From NCBI GenBank assembly GCA_947589245.1, contig CANQBD010000015.1:1-38125 (forward strand): a stretch of DNA of 38,125 nt. Direction: 5' to 3'. The position numbers and the translations under genes were made by a program. The stretch is from an uncultured Anaeroplasmataceae bacterium. Lineage in GTDB: Bacteria > Bacillota_I > Bacilli_A > Acholeplasmatales > Anaeroplasmataceae. Each line of letters starts with the position of its first letter. Within the stretch, counting starts at the first letter, position 1. The notes under the pieces are model-generated. The model made no database searches. It was not told where the DNA came from and saw only the letters and a program-made list of their open reading frames with translations. This document shows, piece by piece, positions 25,663 through 37,211 of this stretch.

Positions 25663-28026
25663 ATGCGTTTAAAGGATTTAAGATGGCATATTTTAGCTTG
25701 TATTATTCTTGTAATTTCATATGCAGCATTAGCTTTTTGTTTTTATCTACCTGTAAGAGCAAAGGCAATATCTTCAATGGAACTTCTTACTATTGAAGCC
25801 GTAAACAATGACATTCAATTAGCACAAGAGACTATTGAAAGCTACAATGAACGCTTCCAAGCCGGTAATATTGGTGGTTTCATTACGGATTTTGATAAGA
25901 CATCTTATGCTTCAAAGGTTAATAATCAAGAATTTATTATTGCTGAAGCTAATTTAGTTTTAAACGATAGTGCTAATCGTGAGCTTTATGTTTTTTATTA
26001 TAATGCTTTAGCTTCTAATAATGATGAGCTTGGTGGTTATATTCCTTTAAAGGATATTATTAATTTTTCAGCTCATCAAATTGTCATTTTTAATGCAACT
26101 GATGGTATTAAATTTAATTCAATTAGTGATCAAGCTGTTGGTACAATGGGCAATCTTTTAGGTGATGAAAAATTCATTAATAATTTCAAGGCGGCTTTTG
26201 ATAATGGTTATTCTAAGGTTTATCGTATTTCTGATGTTGAAGGAATATTGGCTGTAAATTCATTTTATGATCTTTATTTTGGAGTATTCATTTCTTTAGA
26301 TTCGGCTTTTTTTTCAATTGAATGGGTTATGGTTCAAGCTGTTAGCTTTTATGTAGTTGGTGTTTTAATTTTAATAGCAATTTTAGTAATTGTAATTTTG
26401 GGTTGCCGCAAGGCTTCAATACTTTTAAGAATTAATAAAAGAGCTGTTGATTCTAATAATGCTATTGTAATTAGAGCGAAAAAGAATGGCGATATTATTT
26501 TTGTTAATCGAATATTTAAAAGAATCGTTAATTTAAAGGAAATAAATAATTTAAATGAGTTTTTTGAGGTTGATACTCAAAAACCTATTGTTAATTTTTT
26601 TGCTGACCGTAAATTGATTAAGTGTCAATACACGCTTGATGGGGTAACAAAATATTTTCAATTAACGCCAATCATTTCATTAGGAAGTTATTATTTAATT
26701 GGCAGTGAAATTACAGATGAGTTCTTAAGAATTCAAGCCTTAGATGCTTTGAATGGTAAAAATGAATATACTGGTTGTAACAATAACTTTGCTTTAAATA
26801 CTTTATTTCCTTCGATTATTTCTAAAACTAACACTAATTTAGCGTTTGTTGAATTTTCTATTTTCCATTATTATGATATTATTTCTTTATTTGGTGATGA
26901 TTCTTTCCATTTATTATTGCAAGAGCTTTTGAGTATTTTAAGATCAAGATTTGAGAATACGGATATTTTCCAAACTAGAGATGAAAAGTTTGTTGTCTTA
27001 TTTCCAAATAACGATTTAAAGGATGTTACGAGAAGTGTAAATGAAACAGTAGAATTATTACGTAAACCGATTTTAATTAAGAATAACAATATCTATGTCA
27101 AATTGAAAATTGTAATTTGTAATATTGAAAAGACAAGCTTAAATGCTATTGATTTAACAGAAATTAAAAGACGTATTGATTTGGCTTACGCTAGTATTGT
27201 TGATTATTATGATAAAGATGTTGTTGTTTATAATGAAGCTATGGAAGGTGTAATAAGCGCAAGAACTCAAATGGAAGAGGATTTAAAAAAAGCTATTGAA
27301 AATAAGGAATTTGTACAATATTTACAGCCTCAAGTTTCGTTAAGTTCAAATAAGATAGTAGGATTTGAATCTTTAATTAGATGGAATAATCCTAAATATA
27401 TTAAGCGTTCACCTCAAGGTTTTATTGAGTTATCTGAACAAAAAGGGTATATTTTGGATATTTCAAGATTTATTATTGACAATACTTTTGATTTGGCTAA
27501 AAAATTAGAGAAATACAATGTAACCATTTCTTTAAATCTTTCACCAATTCAAATTTTACAGGTTGGTTTTGTTAATGATTTAAAGGCCAAGTTTGATGAA
27601 TATAAATTAAAGCCAGGTAGTATTGCGTTAGAAATAACAGAAACTTTCTTAATGGAAAATGTTTCTTTAGTTAATGAAAAGCTTAAGATTTTAAAACAAG
27701 CTGGTTTTCAGATTCATCTTGATGATTTTTGTATGGGGTATTCATCAATGGCATACCTCAAGGATTTACCGGTTGATACAATTAAAATTGATTATGAGTT
27801 TACAAGGTATGTTGATACCAACAAGGTCAACTATTCAATTGTCAGCTGTATTGCAACTCTAGCCAAAGAATTAGGACTAGATGTTATTGTTGAGGGTGTT
27901 GAAACGGAAGCTCAACAAGCGGTAGTTAAAAAGCTTGGTTGTCAAATTATTCAAGGCTTTTTAATTAGTAAAGCTGTACCATATGATGAAGCTATTAAGC
28001 TTCTTAAACAATACAACGAAAGGTGA
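25663..28026 (+). CDS. Membrane sensor GGDEF-EAL protein: dead GGDEF, probably active c-di-GMP phosphodiesterase
   Basis: This 787-aa protein has membrane helices near 8-30 and 224-248 with an extracytoplasmic sensor between them. A PAS-like segment (about 262-365) follows, then a degenerate GGDEF domain in which the signature is TRDEKF (438-443), so cyclase activity is not expected. A C-terminal EAL domain (about 540-785) follows. The EAL domain keeps the metal and catalytic set: E569 in FESLIRW, N in LNLSPIQ, E in EITE, D687/D688 in DDFCMG, K and D in IKIDYE, E in VEGVE and Q in IIQGF. It should hydrolyse c-di-GMP to pGpG, perhaps controlled by the sensor. It is the first gene of the polysaccharide operon, 7 nt from a second EAL gene. 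The start is ATG 25663 after AAAGGGG. Confidence 0.92.
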   Translation: MRLKDLRWHILACIILVISYAALAFCFYLPVRAKAISSMELLTIEAVNNDIQLAQETIESYNERFQAGNIGGFITDFDKTSYASKVNNQEFIIAEANLVLNDSANRELYVFYYNALASNNDELGGYIPLKDIINFSAHQIVIFNATDGIKFNSISDQAVGTMGNLLGDEKFINNFKAAFDNGYSKVYRISDVEGILAVNSFYDLYFGVFISLDSAFFSIEWVMVQAVSFYVVGVLILIAILVIVILGCRKASILLRINKRAVDSNNAIVIRAKKNGDIIFVNRIFKRIVNLKEINNLNEFFEVDTQKPIVNFFADRKLIKCQYTLDGVTKYFQLTPIISLGSYYLIGSEITDEFLRIQALDALNGKNEYTGCNNNFALNTLFPSIISKTNTNLAFVEFSIFHYYDIISLFGDDSFHLLLQELLSILRSRFENTDIFQTRDEKFVVLFPNNDLKDVTRSVNETVELLRKPILIKNNNIYVKLKIVICNIEKTSLNAIDLTEIKRRIDLAYASIVDYYDKDVVVYNEAMEGVISARTQMEEDLKKAIENKEFVQYLQPQVSLSSNKIVGFESLIRWNNPKYIKRSPQGFIELSEQKGYILDISRFIIDNTFDLAKKLEKYNVTISLNLSPIQILQVGFVNDLKAKFDEYKLKPGSIALEITETFLMENVSLVNEKLKILKQAGFQIHLDDFCMGYSSMAYLKDLPVDTIKIDYEFTRYVDTNKVNYSIVSCIATLAKELGLDVIVEGVETEAQQAVVKKLGCQIIQGFLISKAVPYDEAIKLLKQYNER

Positions 28027-28033
28027 TGATTAA

Positions 28034-29515
28034 ATGTTTTTAGCAGATTTGAATAGTGGAACTACTATTTTAATTAGTTCTATTGTTGTTGTTCTTACGA
28101 TCATTTTATCAATAGTGATTTTTATCTTTATTAAAAAGAATTTAAAGCATTTTAAAGAAGAGGATGAGATTATTGTTGATAATGCTACAACAAAATCACA
28201 AATGCTTAAATTAATTAATAAGCACATTAAAAAGGTTGGTAATTTTGGTGCTGCTACTTTTTTGTATGTTGATATTGATGCTTTTACGGATTATAACGAA
28301 TTATTTGGCACTAAAGCTTGTGATGAAATTTTAAGAGAAGTTGCTACAAGAATTATTAGAGTTTTACCTTATAAGGCCAGCTTAACACGTTATGAAAATG
28401 ATGAATTTTTAATTTTTATTAAAGATGAAGATAATGTGTCTCATAATGAGAAGCTTTGTACCAAAATTTTAGAAGCGGTAAATTTGCCATTTCAAGTATT
28501 GCCAAATGAAAGTTTAAAGATGACAGCTTCAATTGGAGTGTGTACTTTTCCTCAAGCTGGAAATAATATAAAAGAGATTTTAGCTAATCTAGAGCTTTCT
28601 ACCTATGTTTCAAAGCGCGATGGTGGTAATAAGTTTACTAACTATTATGCTACTCTTTCAGAAGAAGAAAAGGATAATATGGCCTATTATAAAGAAATTA
28701 AAGAGGCAATTCAAAAAAAGGAATTCGTTTTATATTATCAGCCAATTATCGATTTTAAGAATCGGGTTATTTGTGGTGCTGAAGCTTTAATGCGTTGGAA
28801 TCATCCCACTCAAGGTGTTTTATCACCTCAAAAGTTTATTAAGGTTATGGAACAATCAGGTGATATTCGTTGGGTTGGTGAATGGGGTATTGATACAATG
28901 ATTAGATTCCAAGAGTCTCTTCATCAAAAGTATCCTGAGCTACCACTATTTTTCTCACTTAACCTTTCAACAAAACAATTATTAAATCCCAATTTGGCTA
29001 ATACGCTAATCAATATTGCTTCTAAGCATAATGCTAAGCCTAGCAATTTTATGTTTGAAATTACAGACTTTATGATTTATGAAAAAATAGGTGTTATTAA
29101 AACTAATATCTTCAAATTAAAAGACTACGGATTTAAGATTGCGGTAGATGGTTTTGTCTTAGATGGACAATCAGTTCAATCAATTCAACGTAGTCCGGTT
29201 GATGTAGTTAAGCTTGGTAGAGGATTCTTAAAAGATATTGATAATAATTATATGCGTGAAAAATTATTAGAAATATTAAAAGAATTTTCTAATAACAATA
29301 ATCGAACTATTATGGCTGAGGGTATTGAGGATGCTAGGGCTGTTAACTATGTTAAAAGTCAAGCATTAGAGATTGGGTCTGGCTATTATTTTGCTAAGCC
29401 TTTAGCTGGTAATGACTTTGAAGAATACATTGATAAAAAGGGTTGGCAAGCTCAATTAGATGAGGTTGCAAGCTTAGAAGATGCTAAGAAATATAATCAA
29501 GAAAATTCTGACTAA
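28034..29515 (+). CDS. GGDEF-EAL protein with both domains degenerate, possible c-di-GMP receptor
   Basis: This 493-aa protein has one membrane helix (about 10-33) then GGDEF (about 55-205) and EAL (about 215-465) domains. The GGDEF signature is ENDEF (E121-F125), missing both glycines. In the EAL domain E250 (AEALMRW), the asparagine of NLSTKQ and E of AEGIE remain. The DD pair is D372-G373 (VDGF), KxD is K393-L-G395, and the QG glutamine is replaced (GSGYYF). Loss of these metal-binding residues predicts no phosphodiesterase activity. Such proteins often act as c-di-GMP-binding effectors or scaffolds. ATG 28034 has AAAGGTGAT upstream. It lies between the active EAL protein and polysaccharide polymerase genes, where an effector would make sense (inference). 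Confidence 0.9.
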   Translation: MFLADLNSGTTILISSIVVVLTIILSIVIFIFIKKNLKHFKEEDEIIVDNATTKSQMLKLINKHIKKVGNFGAATFLYVDIDAFTDYNELFGTKACDEILREVATRIIRVLPYKASLTRYENDEFLIFIKDEDNVSHNEKLCTKILEAVNLPFQVLPNESLKMTASIGVCTFPQAGNNIKEILANLELSTYVSKRDGGNKFTNYYATLSEEEKDNMAYYKEIKEAIQKKEFVLYYQPIIDFKNRVICGAEALMRWNHPTQGVLSPQKFIKVMEQSGDIRWVGEWGIDTMIRFQESLHQKYPELPLFFSLNLSTKQLLNPNLANTLINIASKHNAKPSNFMFEITDFMIYEKIGVIKTNIFKLKDYGFKIAVDGFVLDGQSVQSIQRSPVDVVKLGRGFLKDIDNNYMREKLLEILKEFSNNNNRTIMAEGIEDARAVNYVKSQALEIGSGYYFAKPLAGNDFEEYIDKKGWQAQLDEVASLEDAKKYNQENSD

Positions 29516-29541
29516 TTAAAGTGTTTTTGAGGTAAATGGTA

Positions 29542-30831
29542 ATGATTGAAGAAATTAAGGAACAAAAATTGAATTATATATTATATACTTTTATGATTGC
29601 ATTTGCCTCAGCTTTATTATGGGCTTTTGCAAAATCTTTTGCTATGCCGGTAATTATGATATCTTGTGCTATTGTTTTACTTTGGAAAAATGATTTAAAA
29701 TATGGTTTACCATTTATTGTCAATTTTTTGTTTGTAAATGGTAAAATTGCTGCCTCTAGCGATATAGATATTGGTCTAATTGTTGGTGGTGTGGTTTTGA
29801 TTATTACGATAATTGTTTTTATTCTTCGTAATAAATTGAAACTAAAACTTGGCTATTTTGGGTTGAACCTGTGGATTTTAGCCATTTTAGCTTTAGTGCC
29901 GGTTCTTTGGAGTGAGATTGCTACAGGTGCATTTTACTTTTTATATTTAAGCTGGCTGGCTTATTTAGTGGTTTATTTGTTTTTTGTTAATTCAATTAAA
30001 GAAGATATAAAAGAAGAATTTTCATATACTATGGAAGGTTTAATTATTTTACTTTCTTTAGAGTGCTTACTATCTATCTTTCGATTAAAGGTAACAGGTG
30101 GTAGCTTAAATGATATTTATTCACTTGGCTGGGGTATTTGTAATGAAGCCGGAATAATGCTTTGTGTAGCTATTCCTTTTGCCTTTTATAAATTTTATAC
30201 AACGTTAAAAACTAAAGAAAATATTTTACATTTAGGGGTTTTATTATTAGGAGTTATTGGTATTGTAGCAACGCTAAGTAGAGGGACTATTATTTTTGCT
30301 GCATTAGAATATGGCCTAATGATTTTATATATGCTTCTTAATAAAAAATTATATAAGACAACTATTATTTTGGTCATCTTAGGATTAGCATTGGTGTCTG
30401 TTGTGGTTGTTTGGAAATTTGATTTCTTTTTGGGACACGCTATTGATTTTATTGATAATAATGGTCGTTTTGATTTATATAACAAAGCTTTGTTTGCTTT
30501 AAATAAAAATCCTCGCAATTTTTTATTTGGCGCCGGTTTTGCTTTTGATACTGATTTTAAAGATGCAGTATTTGTTTGTCACTCAACCATCTATGAAACT
30601 TTAGTTTGTATGGGGGTTGTCGGTTTAATATTTTTACTTATTCACTTTGCCTTAAAATACAACTTAGTAATGAAGAAACCAAATAGTTTTAATAGCATTA
30701 TGCTAATCGGCTTTATTGTTGTTGACTTATATGGTTTAATTGACAATACTTACCATATGTATTATTACATGATTATCTTAGTAATGATTTTAGCTGTTAT
30801 TGAAAAAGCGAACAAATTGGGGGTGGAGTAA
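29542..30831 (+). CDS. O-antigen ligase/polymerase-like membrane protein (Wzy/WaaL type)
   Basis: This 429-aa polytopic protein has about 10-12 hydrophobic helices. The family landmarks are ATLSRGTIIFA, followed after two helices by a periplasmic loop with NNGRFDLYNKALFALNKNPRNF and FLFGAGF. This loop pattern (R-x-D...G-x-G) is typical of the Wzy_C/O-antigen ligase superfamily that polymerises or transfers lipid-linked glycans. ATG 29542 has GAGG 9 nt upstream; ATG 29536 is too close to it. The stop overlaps the next start by 1 nt (TAATG). Whether it is a polymerase or a ligase cannot be told. Confidence 0.8.
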   Translation: MIEEIKEQKLNYILYTFMIAFASALLWAFAKSFAMPVIMISCAIVLLWKNDLKYGLPFIVNFLFVNGKIAASSDIDIGLIVGGVVLIITIIVFILRNKLKLKLGYFGLNLWILAILALVPVLWSEIATGAFYFLYLSWLAYLVVYLFFVNSIKEDIKEEFSYTMEGLIILLSLECLLSIFRLKVTGGSLNDIYSLGWGICNEAGIMLCVAIPFAFYKFYTTLKTKENILHLGVLLLGVIGIVATLSRGTIIFAALEYGLMILYMLLNKKLYKTTIILVILGLALVSVVVVWKFDFFLGHAIDFIDNNGRFDLYNKALFALNKNPRNFLFGAGFAFDTDFKDAVFVCHSTIYETLVCMGVVGLIFLLIHFALKYNLVMKKPNSFNSIMLIGFIVVDLYGLIDNTYHMYYYMIILVMILAVIEKANKLGVE

Positions 30832-33629
30832 TGCGCAAAAAATTTTATATTTTTGTCCTTATATTAATATCTGCCTTTGCGATTTTTTTGGTTGCTATTC
30901 CTTATGTTTTTGATGTAAGAACAAAGGATTATTCATCTGATTTGGCTTTTGAAACTAGGCCCAGCATTGAAGAAGTAAATTTATTGTATGATTATTCTAA
31001 TTCCCAAGAAATAGACCAAAGTCTATTAGGACGTATTTCCTTAAATTACAAGTTTAAAACTACTAAAAGCAACAGGGCTGTTTTGCCTTTTTACGCTGTC
31101 TTAAATCAAAATCACGAAAGCTATCAAACGATGAGTGGTAAAGATTTTGAAGTGTTTGCTGATGGGGAAGAACTTAGTTATCAGACTTTATATGGCGATG
31201 ATAGTTTAAATTCTGATTTATCTCGTTATAATTTTGAAGATTTAAAAAAAGTTATTTATGAGGCTAAAAGTGATAATTCAAAGTATTATGTTTATACTTT
31301 TAATTTAAATGGTCAAAGATTAGGTATTGATCATTATGCCGTTAATTATAATGCTTTAATTACAATTAATTTAAAGGTTTCTAATTTGACTAAAAAAGAA
31401 TTAAGAGAACTTGAGAATACTGAATTTTATAATAAAGCTGTTTTGGTGCCTACTGATGCTACTTCAATAATTGTTAGTAGGGTTGAACTTGATGATTATT
31501 TTACTATAGTTCAAGAAAAAACCGAATTAAATGGTAGTAAAGAATTATATAGTTATCTATTTAGAAATTATAATGTTGATTTTGAAGATGTATCGTTGGT
31601 TGCGGAAAATGAAATAGCTCCTTTATTTGAAAATAATGGTTTTAATTCCCTCAGCTTAGATGATTTTGTTAATAAACAACGTTTAATGTTGTTTGAATTT
31701 GAAGTTCCCCAGGACATTAATGAATTATCAATTTCATATAATAACGTTTCTGGTATGGATAGTAGATATGAAACACCACAATATGAGGTTGAATTTCATT
31801 ATAATCGTAAAAATTATGAAGATACGACAAGCTTTAATATTACCTATAAACTCGATGATAAGAATAAAAATATTAATTTTACGGTCTTTGAATTAGAAAA
31901 AAACGGGAATAGTTATAGTCGGCATTTTGAAGAATTACCACTAGAGGTTAAAATTTATTTTAGTGCTTCTGTGGAATCTAAAAAAACAATAGATACTTTG
32001 AAAATAGAATTATCTGGTTTTTCTAAGTATATTATTTTGCCTTTCTTATTAATTGTTTTGGTGATTGCTTTAATAATGGATATTATTAATAGAATTAGTA
32101 AAAAACAAGAAGAAAAAGTTTTTGGGTTAAAATATATTTTTCAATTTTTAAAAGATAAAATAGTAAATTATTTTCCTGAGATATTAACGTTCTATATGCT
32201 TGGCTTTAAATTCTATACCTTATATACAGGTGATTCATCATTAAATATAACTAATGCTATTATTTTAATTATATTTATTTTTGCGTGCTTTATTTATTTT
32301 GTTTGTAAAACAATGAATAGTGTTAATTATTTAAAACTATTATTTTATACTATTTTAGCTTGCTTTGTTGGTTTTGTAGTTGAAGATTTGGCTTTTATTA
32401 TGTTAATAGCACTTGGAGTGTGCTTTGCAGATAAAGGACCAAAGCCTTTCTTAAAAGCTCTTTATTTAAGTATTATCTTTTTCTCATTACAAACAATAAT
32501 TTTTAGTGCATTTGGAATAATAAAAGATGAGATTTTTCATGTGTGGAATATGGAAACTTGGGAAATTTTAGATTTTGAACGTCATTCTTTAGGGTTTTCC
32601 CATCCCAATACGGTGTCACTATTTTTATTTGTTGGTTATTTGAGTTTAATGCTTTACAAAAAAACTTCCTTTTGGGAAAGAATTGGTTTGATTTTATTAA
32701 CAGTAGTTATATATTATTTAACACGTTCTAGAACGGGATGTTTATGTGTTGTTATTTTGTTAATACTAGATATCTTATCTGATGTTTTCAAATTCAAAGG
32801 AAAGTGGAGATATATAATTGTACCTATGTTTCCGGTTTTAACAATTTTAACCTATTTGGCTGCTAAGAATTATACTAATTTTCAAAGTATAAATTATTTG
32901 TTGAGTGGGCGCTTATCAATCATATTCACATATTTAGAGAAAGATTGGTTAACTATTTTTGGAGCATCTGGCATATCAAGTTCTTTATATGAATTGGTAC
33001 CGATTGATAATCTTTATATGAATGTTTTAATTTTCCAAGGATTGCCATGCTATTTAATTTATCTTTTGATTTATGTTATTGCCTCATATAAAGCTGCTAA
33101 AACAAATAATGCCAAGATGTTTTTTGGGCTATTAATATATTTTGTTTTTTCTTTAACTGAGGCTACTTTAATGAGTTATTCTTGCGCTATTTTTGTGGCA
33201 TTATTATTTATTACAACCCTAGGTGACAAATATTATATGGATGGAAGATTAATTGAAAGAAAGCCACGTACTTCATATAGAGTTTTATATATTGTTAAAT
33301 CTTTAGAGGGACTAGTTTTTGATGAAACTTGTAGTAATGTTGTTTTCGTTGTTGGTTCCCAAAAAGGAGTAGAATATATTAATCAAACAAAAGTAGTTTA
33401 TGTTAATAGGTGGAATATATTAAAACAGTTATCCGAATATATAAAATATTTTGATCCTGATGACATTCATTTTTATTATCCAAATAAGTTGGGGTCCTTT
33501 GCTTTATTGAGTATGGTATTTAAGGGGAATTTAATTTTGCATATTGATAATGAATATAAATCAACTTCATCATGGAAAGCCCATAAAGGAAGATTAATGG
33601 CTAAAGCTTCTCGGGTTGTGGAGGTATAA
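30831..33629 (+). CDS. Large Wzy-like membrane protein with extracytoplasmic N-domain and a partial glycosyltransferase C-terminus
   Basis: This 932-aa protein is unusually long for Wzy. Residues 6-26 are a membrane anchor. Residues about 28-400 form an extracytoplasmic, beta-rich-looking domain of unknown family. Residues about 402-422 are a second membrane helix. Residues about 445-805 carry roughly ten helices with polymerase-like features (HSLGFSHPNTVSLFLF and TRSRTG). From about 812 a soluble cytoplasmic tail reads like the first half of a GT-B glycosyltransferase (VLYIVKSLEG, FVVGSQKG, FDPDDIHFYYPNK, LILHIDNEY) but ends before any nucleotide-sugar domain. A downstream GT could complete it or the tail could be a relic. 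ATG 30831 has GGGGTGG upstream. The 3' end supplies the next gene's GGAGG. Confidence 0.72.
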   Translation: MRKKFYIFVLILISAFAIFLVAIPYVFDVRTKDYSSDLAFETRPSIEEVNLLYDYSNSQEIDQSLLGRISLNYKFKTTKSNRAVLPFYAVLNQNHESYQTMSGKDFEVFADGEELSYQTLYGDDSLNSDLSRYNFEDLKKVIYEAKSDNSKYYVYTFNLNGQRLGIDHYAVNYNALITINLKVSNLTKKELRELENTEFYNKAVLVPTDATSIIVSRVELDDYFTIVQEKTELNGSKELYSYLFRNYNVDFEDVSLVAENEIAPLFENNGFNSLSLDDFVNKQRLMLFEFEVPQDINELSISYNNVSGMDSRYETPQYEVEFHYNRKNYEDTTSFNITYKLDDKNKNINFTVFELEKNGNSYSRHFEELPLEVKIYFSASVESKKTIDTLKIELSGFSKYIILPFLLIVLVIALIMDIINRISKKQEEKVFGLKYIFQFLKDKIVNYFPEILTFYMLGFKFYTLYTGDSSLNITNAIILIIFIFACFIYFVCKTMNSVNYLKLLFYTILACFVGFVVEDLAFIMLIALGVCFADKGPKPFLKALYLSIIFFSLQTIIFSAFGIIKDEIFHVWNMETWEILDFERHSLGFSHPNTVSLFLFVGYLSLMLYKKTSFWERIGLILLTVVIYYLTRSRTGCLCVVILLILDILSDVFKFKGKWRYIIVPMFPVLTILTYLAAKNYTNFQSINYLLSGRLSIIFTYLEKDWLTIFGASGISSSLYELVPIDNLYMNVLIFQGLPCYLIYLLIYVIASYKAAKTNNAKMFFGLLIYFVFSLTEATLMSYSCAIFVALLFITTLGDKYYMDGRLIERKPRTSYRVLYIVKSLEGLVFDETCSNVVFVVGSQKGVEYINQTKVVYVNRWNILKQLSEYIKYFDPDDIHFYYPNKLGSFALLSMVFKGNLILHIDNEYKSTSSWKAHKGRLMAKASRVVEV

Positions 33630-33631
33630 TG

Positions 33632-34672
33632 ATGGAAACAATTTTTATAAATGGCAAATATTTATCTCAAAGGGTTACTGGTGTTCAAAGATATGCGAGA
33701 GAGGTTGTAAAACAATTTGAATCTGCTGAATGTTATAAGAATTGTCATTTTGTTGTAGTTTGTCCAAGAGATGCAGTTATACCTGAGGGATATAAGCACG
33801 TTAAATATGTAAAGATTAATAAAACGGGTTACTTTTTTGAACAATTATCATTACCAAAATATTTAAAAAAACATAAAGCTAAAATATTACTTAATATGTG
33901 TAATTTGGCTCCTATTAAGTTTCCTGGAGCAACTGTTGTTCATGATTTAAATATTATTGATAATAAGAATTTTTATAGTTTCACTTATCGAACTATTGTT
34001 AAATTTATTAATAGAAGAAATATAAAAAAATATAAGCCTCTTTATACGGTTTCAAATTTTTCAAAAGAAAGAATTAGGGATTGTTATAAATTAAAAAATG
34101 ATTCGATCATTACCACTTATGCTGGTGTTTCTTTAAGAGATAAAATTATTGATTTTAGTTCTAAATTTGCTTTTGTTAATGAAGATTTTTATTTGACTGT
34201 TGGGAGTTTTAATAAAACTAAGAATTTAAAATATATAATTGAAGCTGCCCAAAACAACCCAACAAAAACTTTTGTAATAACAGGGGGAACGGGGAAGGTT
34301 TATGCTGATGAAAATTTAGAAGCTGGGGATAATGTTATATTTACTGGGTATATAACTGATGAAGAGTTAGATTTTCTTTATAGTAAATGCCAAGCTTTTA
34401 TATTTCCAAGCTTTTATGAGGGATTTGGAGCTCCGCCTCTTGAAGCAATTGCTTGTGGTTGTAGAAGAATTATTTTATCCAATATACCCGTATTTAAAGA
34501 AATATATGGTGAATACGTTAGCTATTGTGATCCGTATGCTGTTAGTACAATTGATGATTTATTAGCTAAATCAAAAGTAATTAGTGAAGAAGAGGCTAAA
34601 GAATTATTAGAAAAATATTCTTGGTGTAATGTTGCCAAAATTTTATTTAATGGCTTAGGAGGTAAGAACTAA
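33632..34672 (+). CDS. GT4-family glycosyltransferase
   Basis: This 346-aa GT-B enzyme has an N-terminal NGKYLSQRVTGVQRYAREV loop and HDLNIIDN acceptor-side domain. The C-terminal domain has YLTVGSFNKTKNLKYII, GTGKVY, FTGYITDEELDFLYSKC and the catalytic FYEGFGAPPLEA (E-x7-E). This resembles mannosyl-type transferases of polysaccharide loci; donor and acceptor are unknown. ATG 33632, 7 nt after GGAGG, is preferred over the adjacent ATG 33629. Its end overlaps the next gene (TAATG). Confidence 0.9.
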   Translation: METIFINGKYLSQRVTGVQRYAREVVKQFESAECYKNCHFVVVCPRDAVIPEGYKHVKYVKINKTGYFFEQLSLPKYLKKHKAKILLNMCNLAPIKFPGATVVHDLNIIDNKNFYSFTYRTIVKFINRRNIKKYKPLYTVSNFSKERIRDCYKLKNDSIITTYAGVSLRDKIIDFSSKFAFVNEDFYLTVGSFNKTKNLKYIIEAAQNNPTKTFVITGGTGKVYADENLEAGDNVIFTGYITDEELDFLYSKCQAFIFPSFYEGFGAPPLEAIACGCRRIILSNIPVFKEIYGEYVSYCDPYAVSTIDDLLAKSKVISEEEAKELLEKYSWCNVAKILFNGLGGKN

Positions 34673-35763
34673 TGAGGGTTTTGTTTTTGACTAATGTTCC
34701 TTCTCCTTATCGTGTTGATTTTTTTAATGAAATTGGTAAAGCAGTTGATTTGACAGTTGTTTTTGAACGTGAAAATGCGAAATCAAGAAATGCCGAATGG
34801 ATCAGTGACAACTTTAAGAATTTTAAGTATTTCTTTCTAAAAGGTATTAAGTATGGTGATGACGGTTTAATATCTTTTAAAGTTAAAAAGTTTTTAAAAA
34901 AAGATTTTGATATTATTATGTTTGGCAATTATCATACGCCGACATCAATAATTGCTGCCAGATATTGTATTAAGAAAAAAATACCTTATGCTTTAAGTGT
35001 AGATGGCATTTTTAAGCATGATAATGAGAATAAATTCAAATTAAAGATGAAGAAGAAAATTTTTTCTCAGGCTGAGTTTTTTGTTACATCTGGTAATTAT
35101 AGTGTAGATGTAATTAAATATTATGGCGGAAGTAATTGCTATATATATCCTTTTACTTCGGTTCATGATAATTATGTTTTAAATAAACCTATCTCTATAG
35201 AGGAAAAACAAAAGTTAAAAAATGAATTAAATTTGAAGAATAATTTAATTTTATTTGTTGGCCAAACTATTGCTCGTAAAGGAATAGATATATTATTTAA
35301 AGTTTTTTCTAATTTAAGTAATTGTCAGTTGTTAGTAATTGGTGGTACACTTAATGAAGAGTATCAAAAATTAAAAAGAGAGTTAGCTATTGATGTTGAT
35401 GTTATTCCATTTTTAAAATCTAAGGAATTAGAAAAATATTATTTAGCTTCAGATGTTTTTGTTTTACCAACAAGAGAAGATCAATGGGGGCTTGTTATTA
35501 ACGAAGCTTTAGCTAAAGGTCTGCCAGTTGTTTCGTCCACTATGTGCTTGTCTTGTTATGAAATGATTAAAGATAACGGCTATATGGTTGAAGTTGAAGA
35601 TATAGATGGTTATGTTAAGGCCATTAACAATATTTTTAATTTGTCAGCAGAAAAGTATTCTTTGTTGCAAGAAAATGCAATTAAAGTGGCCAAAGAATAT
35701 ACAATTGAAAAAATGGCTGAGCGCCATGTTGCAATATTCAAAGAAGTGATTTCAAAGAGGTGA
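34672..35763 (+). CDS. GT4-family glycosyltransferase
   Basis: This 363-aa GT-B enzyme begins MRVLFLTNVPSPYRVDFFNE, the pattern of many capsule and exopolysaccharide transferases. The acceptor domain has IIMFGNYHTPTS. The donor domain carries ILFVGQTIARKGIDILFKVF, DVFVLPTREDQWGLVINEA (E-x7-E type with an aromatic insertion) and GLPVVSS. The sugar specificity is unknown. It is translationally coupled to the preceding glycosyltransferase by TAATG. The flippase gene follows. Confidence 0.9.
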   Translation: MRVLFLTNVPSPYRVDFFNEIGKAVDLTVVFERENAKSRNAEWISDNFKNFKYFFLKGIKYGDDGLISFKVKKFLKKDFDIIMFGNYHTPTSIIAARYCIKKKIPYALSVDGIFKHDNENKFKLKMKKKIFSQAEFFVTSGNYSVDVIKYYGGSNCYIYPFTSVHDNYVLNKPISIEEKQKLKNELNLKNNLILFVGQTIARKGIDILFKVFSNLSNCQLLVIGGTLNEEYQKLKRELAIDVDVIPFLKSKELEKYYLASDVFVLPTREDQWGLVINEALAKGLPVVSSTMCLSCYEMIKDNGYMVEVEDIDGYVKAINNIFNLSAEKYSLLQENAIKVAKEYTIEKMAERHVAIFKEVISKR

Positions 35764-35786
35764 TTATTTTGCAGGAAGGAAAAAGG

Positions 35787-37211
35787 ATGACCAAAAACAT
35801 TTTAATAGTTACGATTAGTAACATCGTCAGATTAGTTGCTGGTATGGCCATTGGTCTTGTCATTCCTAAGTTTCTTTCTGTGGAGGACTATGGATGTTAT
35901 AAAACCTATACTTTGTATATGACATACATTGGATTATTTTCGCTTGGTTTAATTGATGGTATTTATTTAAAGTATGGTGGCAAGAAATACGAAGAGCTTG
36001 ATCGCGGTAAATTTAGGTGTTATATAAGGGCTCTATTTTATTTACAGTTAATAATGGCCGTTATTTTATTTGTGATTTCTTTTTTCTTTATGAAAGGGGA
36101 ATCAAAGATAATCTTTGTTAGTATTGCAGTAAACTTAATTGCTCAACAATTGCTGACATATTTTGCACAAGTTTCTCAGCTTGCTAGTCAATTTACTTTA
36201 TTATCAGTTTTTAATATTTTTTGGAGTGTCATTACGTTAATTGGTGTTGGTTTGATTTATATTATTCCGGAGGCCAATTATCTTACTTATATAATTATTG
36301 TTATAGCATCGAACTATCTTTTGTTGATTTTTTATTTCGTAACCTATCATGATATTATTTTTGGCAAAGCTCAAAAATTAAAGGATGAAAAGCAGGAAAT
36401 CATTTATTTGATGAAGCTTGGTTTGCCTTTATTGGTTGCCAATTTAGTTTCAACATTAATTTTAAGTTGTGATCGTATTTTTATTGAAAGAATCTATGAT
36501 ATTGAGCAGTTTTCTTATTATTCATTTGCTTATAGTTTGTTTTCAATAGCTAATACGTTTATTACAGCTGTTTCAATGGTCTTATACCCTATGCTCAAAA
36601 AGATGGGAGAAGACAATGTTAAAAATGCGTATAACAAGGCAATTGCCTTAATGTTAATAATTGTATTTGCTGGTCTTTCAGCCTATTTTCCACTTTGTGC
36701 ATTTATTAATTGGTATTTGCCTAAATATAATGATTCCTTACCAGTTTTTAGAATTATTTTACCAGGACTAGCTGTATCCTCTTGTATTAGTGTCGTAATG
36801 CAAAATTATTATAAAGTGGCTAATAAAAATTTATCTTTCTTTATAAAAAGTTTAGTTATTTTAGGTATTGCTGTTGGAACCAATTTGATAGCAATTTATG
36901 TTTTTAAAGAAATTATTTATATATCAATTGCTTCAGTTATAACATTATTTATTTGGTATTTTGTAACGGAATTTTTCTTTATTAAAGAATATAAGGCTAA
37001 CACAATTAAAAATACTATCTTTTTAATTTGTGCAACTGCAGTCTTTTATTTGGTCAGTATGATTGAAAACAATTTAATTGCGTTTTTTGTTTATGTTTTG
37101 GTTGTCGGTGGTTTTATTTGTGTCTTATATTATAAACTATTACGCAGCTTCTTAAGAGTTTTTTTAAAAAAGAACAGTAATAATACAGACAATCAGTCAA
37201 ATAATTTATAA
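35787..37211 (+). CDS. Wzx-type polysaccharide flippase
   Basis: This 474-aa protein has about 12-14 membrane helices of the MOP/polysaccharide transport superfamily. It has the N-terminal pattern NILIVTISNIVRLVAGM...PKFLSVEDYGCYKTY and a matching second half with LVSTLILSCDRIFIERIY. It would flip undecaprenyl-diphosphate-linked repeat units across the membrane for Wzy polymerisation. The start is ATG 35787 after GGAAGGAAAAAGG. TTG 35769 behind AGAGGTGAT, which would overlap nothing essential, is a possible alternative adding six residues. It is the last gene of the operon; no clear terminator precedes the yebC promoter. Confidence 0.88.
   Translation: MTKNILIVTISNIVRLVAGMAIGLVIPKFLSVEDYGCYKTYTLYMTYIGLFSLGLIDGIYLKYGGKKYEELDRGKFRCYIRALFYLQLIMAVILFVISFFFMKGESKIIFVSIAVNLIAQQLLTYFAQVSQLASQFTLLSVFNIFWSVITLIGVGLIYIIPEANYLTYIIIVIASNYLLLIFYFVTYHDIIFGKAQKLKDEKQEIIYLMKLGLPLLVANLVSTLILSCDRIFIERIYDIEQFSYYSFAYSLFSIANTFITAVSMVLYPMLKKMGEDNVKNAYNKAIALMLIIVFAGLSAYFPLCAFINWYLPKYNDSLPVFRIILPGLAVSSCISVVMQNYYKVANKNLSFFIKSLVILGIAVGTNLIAIYVFKEIIYISIASVITLFIWYFVTEFFFIKEYKANTIKNTIFLICATAVFYLVSMIENNLIAFFVYVLVVGGFICVLYYKLLRSFLRVFLKKNSNNTDNQSNNL

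Follow-up and report, generated by a model that had tools for sequence, protein, structure and literature searches.

The subject of this analysis is a gene in a stretch of DNA from an uncultured gut bacterium of the Anaeroplasmataceae (assembly GCA_947589245.1, contig CANQBD010000015.1, positions 1 to 38,125 of the forward strand); these 38,125 nucleotides are called the window below, and the genome G000. The gene is an open reading frame (ORF) on the plus strand with an ATG start, at 30831-33629, exactly as located in a preliminary description made from the letters alone. It encodes a 932-amino-acid (aa) protein in which a Wzy-like membrane core is preceded by an extracytoplasmic domain (ectodomain) and followed by a short tail. 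Profile comparisons establish, at the level of sequence, that the ancestor of this tail was the acceptor half, at the N-terminus, of a GT4-B glycosyltransferase. We favour, with moderate confidence, a reading in which the protein is a working Wzy polymerase that has captured an ectodomain and retained the GT4 remnant as a putative docking or stability module. Though genuine, the architecture departs only modestly from what is already known.

Architecture and orthologues

All parts of the protein are given in coordinates of the plus strand. Hydropathy places a first transmembrane segment (TM1), the anchor, at residues 5-23 (30843-30899) and a second (TM2) at residues 401-419 (32031-32087), with no membrane segment between them; the ectodomain occupies residues 28-397 (30912-32021). 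Behind a charged linker that follows TM2 and is poorly conserved (9-27% identity between orthologues), the Wzy-like polytopic region, assigned from hydropathy and homology, spans residues 448-800 (32172-33230), with more TM segments from residue 473 to about 798. The non-membrane tail covers residues 812-932 (33264-33626), and the basic stretch preceding it suggests, by the positive-inside rule, that it lies on the cytoplasmic side. The reverse strand of 30831-33629 contains many stops in the frame read.

Orthologues of full length (920 and 924 aa) are encoded in two species of another Anaeroplasmataceae genus, at 54% and 41% identity to the 932-aa protein. They share its layout, and together with the hydropathy they confirm the order set out in the preliminary description: anchor, outer domain of about 370 residues, polymerase-like helices and tail. 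In their loci (L010 and L011, from Anaeroplasma metagenome-assembled genomes) the flanking genes and their order are those of the window operon. Being common to three species in the same operon, the architecture is no artefact. These were the two further species with full-length relatives among 55 genomes of the family; searches of 160 order-level and 395 class-level genomes added no others, and the architecture is absent from all ten congeners. A pattern scan of contigs from 84,980 species, with the alignment as query, returned the two orthologues and no others; with a single sequence as query such a scan gave no matches.

A tail derived from half a glycosyltransferase

Three kinds of GT4 enzyme occur in these loci, GT4-A, GT4-B and GT4-C. 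The tail, a soluble region of about 120 aa C-terminal to the Wzy core, matched GT4-B as a profile (P 7e-5) and the N-domain of six GT4-B members (P 3e-5). Comparisons with GT4-A, GT4-C and five control profiles gave P values of 0.17-0.9, and the best of 40 column-shuffled tails reached P 0.04 against GT4-B. An origin from the neighbouring GT4-A or GT4-C was considered and rejected, as neither gave a profile match (P 0.22 and 0.17). In the alignment, 'FDPDDIHFYYPN' of the window tail stands against 'FDPDYIYFHYPN' of GT4-B. The GT4-B loop 'PHIGGIE' has its GG (GGxE) deleted in all three tails, and the tail ends at 'VVEV', just ahead of the 'ATSP' that leads to the GT4-B donor half. With neither a GG loop nor any donor half, the tail is almost certainly non-catalytic by itself. 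The likeness to the acceptor half of a GT-B enzyme, as first described, therefore holds for its ancestry, a GT4 N-half, and fails for its completeness, since the half is not intact.

The half enzyme might be imagined to act in trans, paired with a donor half supplied by one of the adjoining GT4 proteins; the position of the GT4-A and GT4-C genes just downstream would allow this, but is no direct support. Each of these has its own N-half, however, and the tail is without the GG loop, so that we regard such pairing as extremely improbable. A frameshift or assembly error that cut a complete GT4 domain might likewise be suspected, as the domain cut falls at the gene boundary; but the end point is identical in three independent assemblies and no leftover GT4 C-half was found downstream of the tail in any frame in the three species, which makes this explanation barely credible.

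The tail is stop-free and similar in length in all three species, although fourfold-degenerate sites are near-saturated between the orthologues (29-32% identical over the whole gene), and its similarity between orthologues lies far above that of shuffled sequences (z = 22.6, 5.0 and 4.4). This persistence argues against the tail as a pure relic, left functionless on the polymerase after GT4-B lost its C-half when GT4-A was placed behind it, since a functionless tail would be expected to have been lost in at least one species. Consistent with a relic are the faster evolution of the tail than of the ectodomain and the Wzy core, and its stop exactly at GT4-A, whose ribosome-binding site (in the window GGAGG, 33620-33624, plus strand) lies within the final tail codons in all three species. 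The missing C-half downstream points the same way, as do the near loss of the GT4-B signature in the tail of the 41% orthologue and the intact GT4-B genes elsewhere in orthologue-bearing genomes (beside the operon in G024, at another place on the contig in G037). We hold a pure relic to be possible, if somewhat doubtful. In G000, whose assembly is 92.6% complete, a search for GT4-B with the L006 enzyme as query gave just a C-half match, and one with the L011 enzyme was empty.

Complete Wzy-GT4 fusions in the family

A search for relatives of GT4-A returned open frames far longer than a GT4 enzyme, three of which are single proteins that join a Wzy-like part at the N-terminus to an entire GT4: a 771-aa protein in G052 (L058 8762-11077, minus strand), an 805-aa protein in G011 (L061 4100-6517, plus strand) and a 736-aa protein in G045 (L062 5996-8206, minus strand). 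Pfam was run on the 771-aa protein only, where it assigned Wzy_C to residues 212-346 and Glycos_transf_1 to residues 605-739. The Wzy parts belong to at least two lineages: those of L058 and L062 are alike at E 4e-55, and that of L061 is separate and 42-43% identical to its unfused neighbours. On a GT4 tree of 10 GT4-A rows, in which gain and loss are indistinguishable, the fused state requires three changes, and strongly supported branches force two of these. Thus, the joining of Wzy and GT4 happened, or was undone, repeatedly in Anaeroplasmataceae, and the window tail would seem to be one more case, degenerate and involving another kind of GT4.

The preliminary description had proposed looking for homologues with a complete C-terminal glycosyltransferase domain. 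There are none among the orthologues, and the three complete fusions, in other species of the family, carry an orthologue of GT4-A and not of GT4-B, the parent of the tail. Among the open-access papers searched, none dealt with Wzy-GT4 fusions or with capsule genes of Anaeroplasma. Another apparent fusion, of mannose-6-phosphate-isomerase-like and GDP-mannose-dehydratase-like parts in one ORF, was predicted from sequence in L010 (17250-19205, plus strand, 651 aa) and L060 (5972-7885, plus strand, 637 aa).

Wzy core and operon

By sequence similarity the core groups with two Wzy-like proteins from polysaccharide operons, both stand-alone. One (L057 11620-12777, 385 aa) is 27-29% identical to the core at E 1e-24 to 1e-29 (best 3e-29, BLASTP), and its operon, from another genus, carries the same GT4-A, GT4-C and flippase; the other (L013 1264-2646, 460 aa) comes from another family of the class, stands beside sugar genes and matches at BLASTP E 3e-10. 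Among the residues that do not vary across five relatives are G588, H591, N593, SRTG 633-636, S692, R694, DN 726-727 and E777. Profile comparison of the core with the Wzy group of L061 gave P 1.3e-4 (flippase control, 0.67), and this group is related (E 4e-40) to the product of L058 14110-15585, itself a Pfam Wzy_C match.

The window operon is of the Wzx/Wzy type, with two Wzy-like proteins, two GT4 enzymes and a flippase, all on the plus strand. The presence of two Wzy-type proteins, noted at the outset, was borne out: directly upstream of the 932-aa gene lies Wzy1 (29536-30831, 431 aa), which matches Pfam Wzy_C at E 1.1e-8. Downstream follow GT4-A (33629-34672, 347 aa), whose orthologues in three species form part of fusions with other Wzy proteins, GT4-C (34672-35763, 363 aa) and a Wzx-type flippase (35760-37211, 483 aa, Pfam Polysacc_synt). 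A repeat scan of the operon gave only weak AT-rich matches.

The Pfam Wzy_C family includes both polymerases and O-antigen ligases. Polymerase and ligase are inseparable by sequence, and we infer polymerase activity of the core from its family and operon. A WaaL-like ligase, moving the finished polymer to an acceptor held by the ectodomain while Wzy1 polymerises, is suggested by that double scope of Wzy_C and by the two Wzy-like proteins in one operon, of which Wzy1 is the one that matches Wzy_C. Nevertheless, the nearest relatives of the core are Wzy-like proteins of similar operons that have no ectodomain, and the locus of G040 retains two Wzy-like genes, neither with an ectodomain; we consider the ligase rather unlikely.

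Further upstream, two GGDEF-EAL proteins with degenerate-looking GGDEF motifs are encoded at 25663-28026 and 28034-29515 of the window, the second ending 20 bases before Wzy1. This neighbourhood was not seen in L010 or L011, and G000 (1.28 Mb) holds several GGDEF matches. Control of the polysaccharide by cyclic di-GMP is possible, given the adjoining genes. G000 also contains an undecaprenyl diphosphate synthase-like gene (L073 7317-8042).

An apparently recruited ectodomain

Profile searches with the ectodomain recruited stand-alone proteins of 425-443 aa with a signal peptide, an ectodomain and a TM segment, from one genus of another family, as well as an 888-aa congener protein and two proteins of about 300 aa. 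The three-orthologue ectodomain profile matched these exported proteins at P 1.8e-7 over columns 16-366, compared with P 0.12-0.81 for controls (eight profiles built for other purposes and the tail). As judged from these profiles, the ectodomain is a member of a protein family that is exported and anchored in the membrane. It is probably DUF4424-like, a link that runs through distant relatives: L051-L053 matched DUF4424 at E 3e-5 to 3e-3, below the Pfam cut-off, and PF14415 (DUF4424) had no match in the 932-aa protein or its orthologues. None of the stand-alone ectodomain genes lies within a recognisable polysaccharide operon, so the domain was apparently recruited from outside polysaccharide genes. 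PF02706, the family of Wzz-type co-polymerases, had no match in the outer domain of the 932-aa protein or its orthologues. That the ectodomain stands in for a missing Wzz is unsupported, as G000 encodes PF02706 proteins at other loci.

Two of the relatives have features of their own. The 888-aa protein (L051 5484-8150, minus strand, congener G010) has a similar ectodomain along with several TM helices, and a zinc ribbon at its C-terminus, and in G391 the stand-alone gene occurs in tandem (L055 483-1820 and 2285-3616, plus strand), the first copy being split into two ORFs.

Proposed function

We hypothesized that the core (448-800) would join lipid-linked repeat units at the external surface of the membrane, as its family and operon suggest, and that the most likely task of the ectodomain is to hold or steer the chain as it grows, or else to contact partner proteins. 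The N-half of a GT4-B enzyme would once have been fused to the polymerase, or inserted behind it, leaving the present remnant, which has most likely been retained in the cytoplasm as a module for docking or folding, close to the glycosyltransferases of the operon. A docking or folding role is favoured because the tail persists at saturated divergence and complete Wzy-GT4 fusions recur in the family.

Several results weigh against this reading. The tails of L010 and L011 taken singly barely match GT4-B. Over the three pairs of orthologues, identity is lowest in the tail apart from the short linker (41/22/19%), compared with 36-50% in the ectodomain and 64/50/43% in the Wzy core, the best-conserved large part. 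Pfam Wzy_C does not match the core; the stand-alone relatives L004 and L013 likewise have no Wzy_C match, the 932-aa protein as a whole has no Pfam (E 0.1) or NCBIfam match, and direct sequence matches in the PDB were found neither for it nor for its tail or ectodomain. AlphaFold2, given three sequences, reached a mean predicted local distance difference test (pLDDT) score of 38 for the ectodomain and 54 for the Wzy region with the tail, both of low confidence, and Foldseek against the PDB returned nothing at E below 0.001 for these models. In the model of the Wzy region with the tail, the start of the tail (pLDDT 51-76, with low values elsewhere) has strands followed by a helix, one more strand and a second helix, an order that half of a Rossmann fold could show but that speaks neither for nor against GT-B. 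Lastly, the priming phosphoglycosyltransferase PF02397, which two relatives have, was not found in the 92.6% complete assembly of G000; either the first step of the pathway has no candidate in this genome or its gene is missing from the assembly.

A bolder version, which we regard as unlikely, would have one chain link three stages of assembly, with a GT4-derived dock gathering the glycosyltransferases, a Wzy polymerase and, outside, a built-in chain-length co-polymerase. Such a protein would be one outcome of an Anaeroplasmataceae-wide tendency to fuse polymerases with transferases.

Wzx/Wzy pathways are thought to act as loose complexes of separate proteins. Recurrent Wzy-GT4 fusions and a persisting dead half-domain are natural hints to which of these proteins touch, and both lend themselves to simple tests of physical coupling between repeat-unit assembly and polymerisation. 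Anaeroplasma is described as lacking a cell wall and, given the kinship of the lineage with it, the cell surface could be covered mainly by this polysaccharide.

Comparison with known systems

With the Wzy/O-antigen ligase superfamily (PF04932 Wzy_C; L057, L013) the 932-aa protein shares its polytopic core and operon context, and with the stand-alone Wzy-like proteins the motifs HxN, SRTG, S-x-R, DN and E. It differs in the two-helix-anchored ectodomain in front, the half-GT4 tail behind and the lack of a Pfam match to the core. Compared with GT4-B enzymes (L006 733-1848, L011 1434-2558), the tail aligns to their N-terminal domain, but has neither the GG loop nor any of the donor half.

The ectodomain is homologous to the anchored exported proteins L051-L056, none of which is fused to a polymerase, whereas its link to DUF4424 itself (PF14415, PDB 4g2a) is indirect. 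DUF4424 is a 19-stranded beta-sandwich (4g2a) that resembles auxiliary domains of M1 aminopeptidases, and a role in multi-component enzyme complexes has been proposed for it (PMC3848476). Wzz-type co-polymerases (PF02706) have the same layout of an outer domain between two TM segments, although the 932-aa protein has no sequence match to them; they bind Wzy, as PMC10030265 describes for WzyE-WzzE. The complete fusions (L058, L061, L062) are alike in carrying a polymerase-like part and then a cytoplasmic GT4 in one chain, but their GT4 is complete and an orthologue of the window GT4-A, they have no ectodomain, and their Wzy parts belong to other lineages.

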